In this document: piece after piece, positions 26,751-54,974 of the stretch
Layout of the letters: each line of letters begins with the position of its first letter
Position numbering within the stretch: position 1 is the first letter of the stretch
NCBI GenBank assembly: GCA_951800645.1
Contig: CATOIK010000003.1
Span: 62,001-126,000, forward strand
Length of the DNA: 64,000 nt
Reading direction: 5' to 3'
Source: an uncultured Eubacteriales bacterium
Lineage (GTDB): Bacteria > Bacillota > Clostridia > Lachnospirales > Lachnospiraceae
The notes under the pieces: model-generated
Seen by the model: only the letters and a program-made list of their open reading frames with translations
What the model was told of the DNA's origin: nothing
The model's database searches: none
Position numbers and translations under genes: made by a program

Positions 26751-28550
26751 CTACCCCTCTGGTATACTCTCCGCCACACACAGCGTCCCATACCCTACCA
26801 TCGGATTGGGATAAACAGAAATCCCAGGCAAGGGTCTGGCTCCCCGATGAAGGTAGGCTTTGACTTTCTCCCCATAGAGGAAAGGATCGTTTCCGTTTAC
26901 AATCCCCCACTGCATCATCAATGCGGCGCTTCCGGCTGCTACCGGGGTGGCAAAGGAAGTACCGGTGACAGACTGGTAACCGCCATTTCGTGCAGGAGCC
27001 ATCAGCCCCACTCCAGGGGCAACCAGATCTGGCTTTATCTGGTTGGTACGGCGGGTAAAGCCCCGGCCGGAAAAATCGGCATAAGACCCAACGGCGCTGT
27101 TGTAAGCGCCTACTGTAATAACATTGGCTGCAGTGGAGGGAATCGTCAGGGTGGTATCCGGGGCAGCGTGAAGGAAGCGGGTGTCAGAGTTTAAGATACC
27201 TGCTGCAGGAAGCCAAAAATCATAACGGCCCTCTACAATATACTGAGGCTCCAGCACAAAGGTCCAGAGACCGCTTTCCACAAACCGGCCCTCGTCCGGC
27301 ACAAAGTCAAAATAAATCTCCTGGGCCTGGCTGTAGGGGCTGGGCTTTCCGTAATAGATCAGAATGGTTGTCTCCCGGTAGCGGTATCGCAAAGGGCCAA
27401 GCTGTTCCGCCAGGGGACCTAAAACATCCCCGGATGGGTTCATCAGGCGAATGGAAAACTGGTCCGTATAGCTTTTCCAAAGCTGAACGCTGACTCCCGT
27501 TTCATAAGGCGCTATAGATAATTCCTCCCGGATGAAATTTCCGTATGCCGTCTGCCCAACACCTATGCCGGCGATACCTGCTCCTGCATTTCTTCCTCCT
27601 GAACTCTGCCTGCTTCCGCCAATTCCCGGATTTTGCATCACCCCAGACACATGCCCCGCCGCAGCTCCTTCATTTCCGCTGCCAACCAGCACTGTGGTTC
27701 TTCCGTAATTGCTGATGTCGTTTAAAAAGGTTTCCAGAAGACTGGTACCGTCGTGGGAGCCATATGTATTTCCAAAGCTGATATTTACCACCAGAGGCCG
27801 CCCCATCTCCACCGCCTTTTCCACCACAAAATTTACCGCCCGCATCAACTCCGTGGTTCTGGGAAATCCATTCGCCCGGGCAGTTCCCAGCTTTACCACC
27901 AAAAGCTGGCTTTCATAGGCGATGCCTCGGTATAAAGCCCCGCCTTCTCCTCTGCCTCCCCCTGCCAAAATCCCGGCCACAGCAGTTCCGTGACCGCTGG
28001 CGTCCACAGACGGCACAATCTGTCTGGCTGCTGCCCTGCTGCCTGACTGAATGGCCTGGTTGATTTCCTCCTGGGTAAACACCCGGTTCAGAGTCTGGTC
28101 CCACAAAGCGGCAATCCGGGTGGTTCCCTCCTCTGTCTGAAAGTCCGGATGAAGATAGTCAATGCCGGAATCCAACACAGCCGCCAACACGCCCCGGCCA
28201 GTCAGGCCAAAAACCGATTCCTGCAAAATGTTAATGCAAGAGGCCGCCTTTGCCTGATTTACGGCAAAGAACAGCCTCTTTGGTTTTTCCACATATTCAA
28301 TTTGAGGAAGGGCGCTTACCTGATCGATCAAATCCTCCGGTACCGTCAGAATGGCATACTCGTTTCGCATTTCCTCCACCTGAACTCCCATCTGCCGCAC
28401 CGTTTCCAGACTGCCGGAGTATTTTACAATCAATTCCCAGGCCCGCTCCTCCGGCAGATAGCCAGTTTCCAGCTCCGAAGATCTGGCCCGCTCCTCCGGC
28501 GAAACATCCAGGGCAAGATTTAACAGGTTTTCCAGTTTCTGATTCGGCAT
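26751..28550 (-). CDS. subtilisin-like (S8) serine protease, Csp germination-protease type
   Basis: 599 residues. N-terminal prodomain (about 1-95), then the triad: Asp in AVLDSGIDYLHPDF (about 128), His in SGHGTAVAGIL (about 187) and Ser in TGTSFATPVAAG (about 530), plus the oxyanion Asn in VGSGNEGAAAGH. Between His and Ser is an inserted beta-rich region (about 320-455, LSIAPYETGVSVQLWKSYT onward) that matches the jelly-roll insertion of the clostridial CspA/B/C family, which converts pro-SleC into cortex lytic enzyme during spore germination. There is no signal peptide. The triad is complete, so it should be active (CspB-like). No sleC or csp partner is adjacent. A CATAAGATA sequence lies 31 bases upstream. 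Confidence 0.85.
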   Translation of the reverse strand: MPNQKLENLLNLALDVSPEERARSSELETGYLPEERAWELIVKYSGSLETVRQMGVQVEEMRNEYAILTVPEDLIDQVSALPQIEYVEKPKRLFFAVNQAKAASCINILQESVFGLTGRGVLAAVLDSGIDYLHPDFQTEEGTTRIAALWDQTLNRVFTQEEINQAIQSGSRAAARQIVPSVDASGHGTAVAGILAGGGRGEGGALYRGIAYESQLLVVKLGTARANGFPRTTELMRAVNFVVEKAVEMGRPLVVNISFGNTYGSHDGTSLLETFLNDISNYGRTTVLVGSGNEGAAAGHVSGVMQNPGIGGSRQSSGGRNAGAGIAGIGVGQTAYGNFIREELSIAPYETGVSVQLWKSYTDQFSIRLMNPSGDVLGPLAEQLGPLRYRYRETTILIYYGKPSPYSQAQEIYFDFVPDEGRFVESGLWTFVLEPQYIVEGRYDFWLPAAGILNSDTRFLHAAPDTTLTIPSTAANVITVGAYNSAVGSYADFSGRGFTRRTNQIKPDLVAPGVGLMAPARNGGYQSVTGTSFATPVAAGSAALMMQWGIVNGNDPFLYGEKVKAYLHRGARPLPGISVYPNPMVGYGTLCVAESIPEG

Positions 28551-53612: not shown

Positions 53613-53722
53613 AAGCGTTTCCCTCTTTCTGTATCATTTATTTCCAGTCTATTCCTAATTATACACTGCCTGTCCTTTTCTGCAACCGAAAAAAATAAAC
53701 TTTTTTTCACAAAAACATGGCA

Positions 53723-53750
53723 ACTGTGACAGGCTGCCTGACATAAGATG
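53723..53750 (+). promoter_or_regulatory. SigK-like sporulation promoter candidate for the Cys-rich gene
   Basis: AC (53723-53724), 17 bases, CATAAGATG (53742-53750) resembles the mother-cell SigK consensus AC-N16/17-CATANNNTA with one mismatch at the last base. No SigA -35/-10 pair was found in 53613-53766. Start codon 31 bases downstream. Confidence 0.4.
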
Positions 53751-53781
53751 GAGTGTAAATAAGTTTTTGGAGGAACAAATT

Positions 53782-54000
53782 ATGAGTGATTTAGCAGCTA
53801 CCAACTGCGGATGTGGATGCGAGTGTAATGCTGGAGGAAACAGCGGCAACGCAATCTGGCTGATTCTGATCCTGTGCTGCTGCTGCGGTAACGGCTTCGG
53901 AAGCAGCGGCGGATGTGGATGCGAACATAACGGCTGCGACTGGATCTGGATTATTCTGCTGCTGTGCTGCTGCGGCGGACACAACAATTTCTTCTGCTAA
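53782..54000 (+). CDS. small cysteine/glycine-rich protein with internal duplication
   Basis: 72 residues from ATG 53782-53784, with GGAGG 9 bases upstream. 15 cysteines. It contains two tandem units of the same plan: GCGCECN...AIWLILILCCCC (residues 10-35) and GCGCEHN...WIWIILLLCCC (44-64), each a CxC-rich head and a short hydrophobic stretch ending in a run of Cys. Similar small proteins occur in Lachnospiraceae and have been named after insect chorion proteins by composition only. Cys/Gly-rich and possibly made under a sporulation sigma factor, it may be a spore-coat or crust protein. This is inference. Confidence 0.75.
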   Translation: MSDLAATNCGCGCECNAGGNSGNAIWLILILCCCCGNGFGSSGGCGCEHNGCDWIWIILLLCCCGGHNNFFC

Positions 54001-54024
54001 ATTGAAAGCAGTCTAAAACGGAAC

Positions 54025-54056
54025 AAGGGCCCCCTCCAAACGAGGGGGCCCTTTCC
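54025..54056. terminator. strong hairpin terminator after the Cys-rich gene
   Basis: AAGGGCCCCCTC (54025-54036) pairs perfectly with GAGGGGGCCCTT (54042-54053), 12 bp, loop CAAAC. Only a short T-run (CTTTCC) follows on the plus strand; on the minus strand it also lies after the 52-residue gene, with CTTGTTCC. Serves both converging small genes. Confidence 0.75.
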
Positions 54057-54071
54057 CTGTTATGACAGCCG

Positions 54072-54230
54072 TCATTTCTCTCTGGTGTTTTCCTGCCTTT
54101 CTCCCCTGCCCCGGCTCCACTTCTGTTTCCGGCTCTCTGCTGTCTCCTCTGCAAACCGTTTCTTTCCGGCCTCGCAGGCTTCATCAATCTCGTACACGGC
54201 ATTGCCATCTATAATCAATCGGGTACTCAT
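54072..54230 (-). CDS. hypothetical 52-residue charged protein
   Basis: ATG at 54228-54230 with a full AGGAGGAG site 7 bases upstream; stop TGA at 54072-54074, then the shared hairpin terminator. Reads MSTRLIIDGNAVYEIDEACE, then a Lys/Arg/Glu-rich helix (GKKRFAEETAESRKQKWSRG) and a polar tail. I do not recognise the family. Convergent with the Cys-rich gene and divergent from the next gene. CATAAGATG, the same sequence as in the Cys-rich gene promoter, lies 22 bases before its start (54252-54260, minus strand). Confidence 0.65.
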   Translation of the reverse strand: MSTRLIIDGNAVYEIDEACEAGKKRFAEETAESRKQKWSRGRGERQENTREK

Positions 54231-54251
54231 AATATTCTCCTCCTGTACTTA

Positions 54252-54295
54252 CATCTTATGCTTCCGCATGTTTCTGGGAAACGGTGCATATATTG
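54252..54295. promoter_or_regulatory. divergent sporulation-type -10 candidates
   Basis: Minus strand CATAAGATG (54252-54260) faces the 52-residue gene; plus strand CATATATTG (54287-54295) faces the 111-residue gene. Both fit CATANNNTR. No matching AC element at exactly 16-17 bases was found for either, so the evidence is partial. Confidence 0.3.
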
Positions 54296-54323
54296 TTTCA
54301 AAGCAGAAAAGGATTGTCTCTCT

Positions 54324-54659
54324 ATGAATGAAGAAAAAACACCAAATATTCAGATGACAGAATTTGATTCCATGGTGGCAGAGCCCAGGCTACAGATGAT
54401 CAAGGCGGCCATCCCCTACCTTCCCCTGCCTCAGCAGCGGCTCATGTCCATAATGGTAAAAATGCAGGAATTAAACCATATTCGTTCCCTGTATGCAGAA
54501 GGAGAACTGTCGGCCATGGGCCTGTCATCAGGTTCCCGCCAGACCTCTTTTGTAGAAATCATCCAGGCTATGAAACCTTACGCAGGCCCAAAAGAGCGTG
54601 AAATGATTGAGATGTTTGAAAATCTCCAGATCATGCTTCAGGCCATGCAGACCACATAA
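54324..54659 (+). CDS. hypothetical helical protein, 111 residues
   Basis: Start at ATG 54324-54326 (MNEEKTPNIQMTEFDS); AAAAGGA is about 11 bases upstream, and the frame upstream has no better site. No signal peptide or membrane segment; largely helical with many Met (PQQRLMSIMVKMQELNH; MIEMFENLQIMLQAMQ). I do not recognise the family. The phrase EPRLQMIKAAIPYL resembles DPRLQQMDPEKLQYI in the next gene. The stop is 14 bases before the next start, so the two are an operon. Confidence 0.7.
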   Translation: MNEEKTPNIQMTEFDSMVAEPRLQMIKAAIPYLPLPQQRLMSIMVKMQELNHIRSLYAEGELSAMGLSSGSRQTSFVEIIQAMKPYAGPKEREMIEMFENLQIMLQAMQTT

Positions 54660-54673
54660 TTTCAGGAGGAGCC

Positions 54674-54961
54674 ATGAATTTTGAACAGTTAAAAAAAGAC
54701 CCCCGTTTACAGCAGATGGATCCGGAAAAGCTTCAGTATATTACCGGTTTCGCCGAGCGCATCTCCACCATGCCCAAGGAGCAGATTCTTCCTGCCTTCT
54801 TAAACCTGCAGATGGACGCTTCCAATAAGCACATCCGCTTTTCCGACGCTGAGACAGAGGTTCTGGTGTCCATTCTAAGCTCCGGCATGACGCCGGCGGA
54901 AAAAAAGAAGCTGGAAACCCTTCGCATGTTAGCTAAAAAACTGGCTGCCAGGTCTTCCTGA
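54674..54961 (+). CDS. hypothetical helical protein, 95 residues
   Basis: ATG with AGGAG 7 bases upstream. Soluble, helical, with no cysteine: MNFEQLKKDPRLQQMDPEKL at the start, a middle SDAETEVLVSILSSGMTPAE and a Lys-rich C-terminus (KLETLRMLAKKLAARSS). Unknown family. It shares the PRLQxM phrase with the preceding protein, and its tail overlaps the terminator hairpin. Confidence 0.75.
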   Translation: MNFEQLKKDPRLQQMDPEKLQYITGFAERISTMPKEQILPAFLNLQMDASNKHIRFSDAETEVLVSILSSGMTPAEKKKLETLRMLAKKLAARSS

Positions 54962-54974
54962 CAGCCAGTTTTCC
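54938..54974 (+). terminator. terminator after the two helical genes
   Basis: ACTGGCTG (54940-54947) pairs with CAGCCAGT (54962-54969), flanked by an A-run before and TTTT after, so it can act in both directions. The stop codon of the 95-residue gene lies in the loop. Confidence 0.7.

Follow-up and report, generated by a model that had tools for sequence, protein, structure and literature searches.

The window analysed here, a stretch of 64,000 nucleotides from an uncultured member of the Lachnospiraceae, contains four small genes, g1 to g4 (Table 1). A divergent AI-2E-family transporter gene lies to their left, and a convergent L,D-transpeptidase gene followed by leuS (assigned by reading its sequence) lies to their right. 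The host genome assembly, of whose contig C3 the window covers positions 62001-126000, is incomplete (2.42 Mb, 83% complete). An earlier note on this DNA had called coding sequences of 72, 52, 111 and 95 residues, and these open reading frames are present, with exactly those lengths, and conserved as coding sequence. pN was lower than pS in every pair compared among the named near-group loci (210 pairs each for g1 and g2, from 21 loci, and 231 each for g3 and g4, from 22), and the median pN/pS was 0.25 for g1, 0.53 for g2, 0.36 for g3 and 0.42 for g4. Judged by these substitution patterns, g1–g4 are real genes under purifying selection.

Table 1 Genes, promoter elements and terminators of the four-gene locus, in positions of the window
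Feature	Position	Strand	Details
g1 promoter, sigma-K type	53722-53750	+	AAC (53722-53724) - N17 - CATAAGATG (53742-53750)
TGNCANGC element in g1 promoter spacer	53727-53734	+	conserved
g1 CDS	53782-54000	+	72 aa, Cys/Gly-rich
Hairpin terminator common to convergent g1/g2	54025-54053	both	fold z -5.8 (+), -5.0 (-); terminator scan, - strand
g2 CDS	54072-54230	-	52 aa
g2 -10 box CATAAGATG, mother-cell-like	54252-54260	-	CATA box in 73/78 loci
g3-g4 promoter, sigma-E type	54268-54295	+	ATG (54268-54270) - N16 - CATATATTG (54287-54295)
g3 CDS	54324-54659	+	111 aa
g4 CDS	54674-54961	+	95 aa; operon partner of g3
Hairpin terminator overlapping g4 end, facing convergent L,D-transpeptidase gene	54937-54972	+	fold z -5.1

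The signals around the genes agree in part with that first description. Read by eye, the ribosome sites it had given to every gene are clear at g1, g2 and g4 and weak at g3. Strong hairpin terminators, which it had placed between all of the genes, were found between g1 and g2 and at the 3' end of g4; by eye there is none between the divergent g2 and g3, nor in the 14 nt that separate g3 from g4. Elsewhere in the window (26751-28550, minus strand) lies a gene for a 599-residue subtilase-like protein, which we take to be reminiscent of the Csp germination proteases.

Conservation of the cassette

The adjacency in Lachnospiraceae for which the earlier note had proposed a search was found. Among the named loci, the best 80 of 184 matches, all four genes occur in the order g1> <g2 g3> g4>, with the same strands, in 73. 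The remaining seven are without one or two genes: L105, L123 and L153 reach contig ends, and L134, L149, L150 and L157 lack only g1, with no obvious contig break. The cassette is kept across Enterocloster, Hungatella, Lacrimispora and Brotaphodocola, and parts of it are traceable to other families. The AI-2E transporter and L,D-transpeptidase genes are not always beside it in the named loci. In a search of 61 relatives, the window's own genome counted, the g1 profile matched 34, once per genome except for G052, where the match fell into two pieces; g3 was present in 36, g4 in 31 (24 of 24 in the genus) and g2 in 23 (23 of the 24 in the genus, the miss being G006, at a contig end).

When leuS genes beside g4 within one genus were compared (L015, L021, L022 and L027 against L025, L028, L030, L031 and L033), they were either 86–87% or only 46–48% identical to the leuS of the window. 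This suggests, from sequence identity, that leuS was replaced in situ in some species of the genus.

For the deeper history we read 42 stretches, taken from other genera and families, that surround g1, g3 or g4. L254 has the order g1> <long g2 g3> g4> <leuS, matching the window. L280 keeps this order, with leuS 1.9 kb further away and a protein at the g2 position that retains only DGVYE, and L255 also keeps it, with g1 recognised only at E 0.05. In L246, g1, g3 and g4 are present and the g2 position is taken by a module protein that lacks the motif; leuS is absent from the stretch read. Several families of the class have g3-like genes and no recognisable g1 or g2. The parts can also lie separately: g1 and g3-g4 are on different contigs in G046, and in G032 about 3 kb separates g1-g2 from g3-g4.

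Promoters and the link to sporulation

The three CATANNNTR sequences that had been placed in this region all lie exactly where the earlier note put them (Table 1). Its statement that no SigA-type pair serves these genes also holds, since a simple scan of 4 kb returned 2 promoter-like sites (4.3 expected), neither of them upstream of g1–g4. Its reading of every box as a SigK promoter stands for g1, whose promoter is of the sigma-K type, and needs correction for g3-g4, which has a sigma-E type promoter; g2 has a mother-cell-like −10 and no consistent −35.

This distinction comes from the spacing. The bare 9-mer CATAAGATG is not enriched genome-wide (17 occurrences against 18 for the reversed control), and the g1 and g3 boxes stand above chance because their distance to the −35 is conserved. 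Among the best 80 of 184 matches, AC-N16/17-CATA precedes g1 in 72 of 74 loci and the ATA/ATG form in none, which is the sigma-K arrangement (AC −35, 16–17 nt, CATANNNT/A −10), whereas ATR-N16/17-CATA precedes g3 in 73 of 80 and the AC form in 1, the sigma-E arrangement (ATA-like −35, 16–18 nt, CATA −10); the loci are related, and these counts are not independent and give no strict probability. The background, taken from every CATA box in these loci with the promoters themselves counted in, is 11% for AC and 9.6% for ATR. For g2 and g3 any box 24–90 nt from the start was allowed, and for g2 a −35 of either kind was found in only 20 of 78 loci (19 AC, 2 ATR, 1 both), 53 of the 73 boxed genes fitting neither form. 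The g3-g4 transcript is expected to start a few nucleotides past CATATATT.

As a reference we used spoIVA, a sigma-E gene: in 20 genomes of the genus its upstream region has ATR-N16/17-CATA in 19 and the AC form in 1. The −35 elements given in an excerpt of PMC3789822 are ATA for sigma-E and AC for sigma-K, and the Epulopiscium boxes, as excerpted from PMC3416734, agree in form with the two types. The corresponding sigma-K control, dpaA, was unusable, as none of 24 genomes gave a match over the family cut-off, so the sigma-K assignment of g1 takes the published consensus as its sole reference. In 15 genomes of the genus, 14 of them with a spoIVA match, dpaA gave three weak matches only, none over the cut-off, and another route to dipicolinate may be used in the genus.

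Beyond the 80 loci, where start codons are uncertain, AC-N16/17-CATA precedes 11 of 11 further g1 genes of the family. Of 6 g1 genes from outside the family, 2 have it, both in L254 and one at a distance of 117 nt from the start; g3 has the ATR form in 5 of 29 and the AC form in 9 of 29. By this count of promoter forms, g1 has the sigma-K form throughout the family, and for g3 the sigma-E form is secure in the nearer clade alone. A secure split in timing is confined to that clade too, given the low numbers for g3 ATR and for out-of-family g1 AC.

The spacer of the g1 promoter holds a further conserved element, TGNCANGC. Searched with up to one mismatch, the pattern GAAACNNTGNCANGC-N7-CATANNAT has a single copy in each of 23 of the 24 genomes of the genus, the exception being G006; elsewhere it was found only in G026, beside its g1, and once in G049. 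The copy in the window carries the one mismatch. A [ACG]CA[AT]GC core, or a sequence close to it, is present in 71 of 72 g1 spacers among the best 80 of 184 matches. This core resembles a SpoIIID site, a reading that was rejected after scoring against the SpoIIID consensus, with at least 8 of 10 positions matching in 36% of the spacers as against 47% of AC-N-CATA sites overall.

We then compared the presence of the genes with that of sporulation markers. TIGR02846 was rejected as a test for sigK, as it matched all 61 relatives and 11 of 14 control genomes, other sigma factors included; since it is unspecific, spoIVA was used as the marker. In the host genome spoIVA is present, and a sigK-like gene scores slightly below the family cut-off. 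Among family members outside the genus, g1 is present in 8 of 8 genomes with spoIVA and 0 of 5 without (Fisher P 0.0008). For g3 or g4 the corresponding numbers are 8 of 11 and 0 of 11 (P 0.001), a count that pools single-sequence searches of one set with profile searches of another and in which G281, with a weak spoIVA match (E 5e-4), is scored as lacking spoIVA. G032, which is among the three genomes with spoIVA that these searches missed, did yield g3-g4 in a later scan of higher sensitivity. Presence with spoIVA and absence without it, in family members outside the genus, is the distribution of a sporulation-specific gene set. Over 37 family members, g1 occurs in 30 of 31 genomes with spoIVA and in 1 of 6 without. 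The exceptions are G006, where a contig end truncates the locus, and G007 (82% complete), which has all four genes and no spoIVA match.

The association extends to a sample of 291 genomes of the class, where g3 was found in 21, 20 of them with spoIVA (209 of 291 overall; P 0.011). The one g3-bearing genome without it, G161, is 78% complete. The g4 profile reached only 6 of the 291, and g4 therefore either diverges fast or is narrower in range.

The sigK-family matches of G005, G008, G011, G013 and G021 are half-length pieces, those of the other genomes of the genus being whole. Both halves are present, apart from each other, in G008, G011 and G021, and the first half only in G005 and G013. These split matches look as if interrupted by a skin-like element.

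Protein families of the cassette

The cysteine/glycine-rich protein singled out by the earlier note is g1, with 15 Cys and 14 Gly in 72 residues. It has two short hydrophobic segments, with a cysteine cluster after each of them (IWLILILCCCC and IWIILLLCCC), and its cysteine content is 14–25% over 74 loci among the best 80 of 184 matches. The distant g1 proteins of L254 and L280 keep both hydrophobic segments and have lost most cysteines, so cross-linking cannot be the ancestral role. Searches of Pfam and NCBIfam gave no family for g1 at E ≤ 1 and no meaningful match for any of g1–g4; scanning the g3 and g4 alignments, 59 members of each, gave weak, scattered family matches only.

The g2 protein has a conserved N-terminal RLIIDGNAVYEIDE motif followed by a variable tail. 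The pattern [IV][DE][GD]N.VYE[ILV]D is kept in 77 of 78 loci among the best 80 of 184 matches, and median pN is 0.07 in columns 1–18 as against 0.56 in the tail, which is slightly basic on median (+0.11 per residue). L253, L254 and L255 have long g2 proteins, in which an N-terminal helical module precedes the g2 motif (VYEVDEDC, IYEIDKEC and IYEIDEAC). Since these long proteins share the motif of the window g2, the latter is a short form of a longer family.

Comparison of profiles connects the long g2 proteins to g3. Their module, represented by five sequences, was compared with the C-terminal half of g3 by hhalign. The clean alignment gave a score of 29.4, with none of 60 shuffles above 12.1, and a wider alignment gave 35.0. 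Rechecked on the clean alignment, the N-terminal half of g3 scored 7.0 against long g2, with 6 of 60 shuffles as high. By these profile scores, the long-g2 module is homologous to the C-terminal half of g3.

Within g3 there are probably two tandem copies of a module of about 38 residues (LQMIKAAIPYLPLPQQR... and VEIIQAMKPYAGPKERE...). On the clean 59-row alignment the two halves scored 24.2 in hhalign, and none of 100 column shuffles exceeded 19.0; on this result we grade the repeat as probable. The wider, less clean alignment gave a score of 35.2 (100 shuffles, none above 9.4), which may be inflated, since that alignment also took in distant pieces that include single modules. Among the matches listed, relatives of g3 that are 44–62% identical come from Candidatus Ventrimonas, Brotaphodocola catenula and other Lachnospiraceae, and those that are 35–46% identical from Hungatella, Enterocloster, Lacrimispora and Lachnoclostridium. 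A phage origin of g3 was considered and rejected, with no g3 match in 50,697 phage records. Families f28, f47 and f65 (L257, L259-L260, L264-L265, L267-L271) have g3-like proteins in open frames of up to ~380 aa; the genes often adjoin a small g4-like or module-like gene, g1 and g2 being absent, and in the protein from L271 the module looks, by eye, to be present three times.

The gap between g3 and g4 is 14 nt in the window and 34 nt on median where the cassette is complete (73 of the best 80 of 184 matches), and the genes overlap by 4 nt in seven and by 8 nt in one of the 79 loci that have both. AlphaFold2 predicts g4 to be all-helical (mean pLDDT 76.5, helices only). Comparison of this model with PDB structures gave no informative match, and PDB sequence searches returned mostly designed helical proteins and unrelated chains. 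Compared as whole profiles, g4 and g3 match weakly (probability 4.7%). On the wider alignments, the C-terminal half of g3 scored 22.9 with the C-terminal end of g4 (at most 11.2 in 60 shuffles), and the N-terminal half 8.5 with the same end and 5.7 with the N-terminal part of g4. The case for homology between g4 and g3 is suggestive only.

A possible role in the spore envelope

The closest known proteins that g1 resembles in how it may work are spore-surface proteins. CotY/ExsY of Bacillus cereus and CsxA of C. sporogenes are reportedly Cys-rich subunits of an ordered spore-surface layer, and they are made late in the mother cell; g1 is likened to them by how they work, and differs in having no Pfam family at E ≤ 1. 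The CotY/CotZ family of Cys-rich coat proteins has a Pfam model, which g1 did not match at that threshold. The YjcZ-type proteins, linked to sporulation in name, are small, Gly-rich and hydrophobic with a short hydrophobic stretch, like g1, which is set apart by its two segments with cysteine clusters and by matching no family model. 'Chorion class high-cysteine HCB protein 13' is presumably a database label for short Cys/Gly-rich proteins of this kind; the one paper found to contain the label concerns silkworm material. CdeC and CdeM, Cys-rich proteins of the Clostridioides difficile exosporium, build a spore surface layer according to the excerpted source, and g1 may work in a similar way. 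They are set apart from it by their range, CdeC occurring only in Peptostreptococcaceae and CdeM only in C. difficile according to that excerpt (PMC6101409), and g1, unlike them, is short, consists largely of hydrophobic segments with cysteine clusters and loses its cysteine in far relatives. A search of the open-licence literature, supplements excluded, found no description of the cassette. A 66-gene sporulation signature includes uncharacterised genes, as stated in an excerpt of PMC8340488, and one of g1–g4 might be among them.

The earlier note had proposed an uncharacterised mother-cell module. The adjacency in 73 of the 80 loci, the tracking of spoIVA and the promoters of g1 and g3 favour this by inference, with the correction that the module is not all sigma-K. 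That the cassette is regulated in the mother cell appears highly probable to us. We also think it fairly likely, on comparative grounds, that the four genes form a conserved mother-cell sporulation cassette building a spore-surface layer, and we put a role in the spore envelope on a similar, better-than-even footing. The cassette probably represents mother-cell spore-envelope genes from protein families for which no Pfam or NCBIfam model was found.

We propose the following order of events. Going by the promoters, sigma-E RNA polymerase would transcribe g3-g4 early and sigma-K RNA polymerase would transcribe g1 late. The g1 protein might then self-assemble and become disulphide cross-linked into the coat or exosporium, a guess from its composition. 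As the weakest step, g3-g4, together with g2 as a reduced docking hairpin, could provide a pre-made scaffold or chaperone for g1; we regard this scaffold-and-cargo step as tentative. More doubtful still is an extension of it, in which an ancient system of the clostridial spore envelope would use a sigma-E-made family of helical modules (g3, long g2, perhaps g4) that waits at the forespore surface and templates the sigma-K-made g1, the g2 of Lachnospiraceae being a bare YEID docking peptide. We lowered our estimate for this extension in view of the weaker score of the g3 repeat on the clean alignment and of a promoter split that was not seen far outside the family.

The genes could instead act in the mother cell without being structural, with g2–g4 as regulators or signalling adaptors (for example in sigma-E/sigma-K timing, cortex or germination) and only g1 reaching the spore. 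The place of g3-g4 before g1 in the inferred sigma cascade, the small size of the proteins with no recognised enzymatic domains and the slightly basic tail of g2 would suit such adaptors, but DNA-binding or anti-sigma family matches were absent at useful E-values, and the tight adjacency to a structural-looking gene also speaks against it; we consider the regulatory reading unlikely. Chance neighbourhood, in which unrelated small sporulation genes merely share the leuS area where rearrangement is rare, would account for the separated parts in G046 and G032. It is improbable given that the cassette is intact in 73 of the best 80 of 184 matches although the flanking genes vary, that its gene order recurs in other families and that long g2 and g3 have a homologous module in common.

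The least probable alternative, very improbable in our estimate, has nothing to do with sporulation: a vegetative operon of stress, membrane or metal-binding peptides, in which the CATA boxes are incidental. The 9-mer CATAAGATG is indeed not enriched in the genome and the cysteine clusters of g1 could bind metal, but the spacing-specific conservation of the promoters is far over background, the presence of the genes is tied to spoIVA, and the simple scan found no SigA-like site.

To our knowledge, few of the proteins that make up the coat and exosporium in gut Lachnospiraceae have been characterised. On the preferred reading, as spore-envelope genes of the mother cell, the four-gene locus offers direct targets for what surrounds the spores of these bacteria, and g1 is usable as a single-copy sequence marker of sporulation within the family. 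If the scaffold-and-cargo proposal is true, one leuS-adjacent locus would specify an entire envelope layer together with the order of its assembly.
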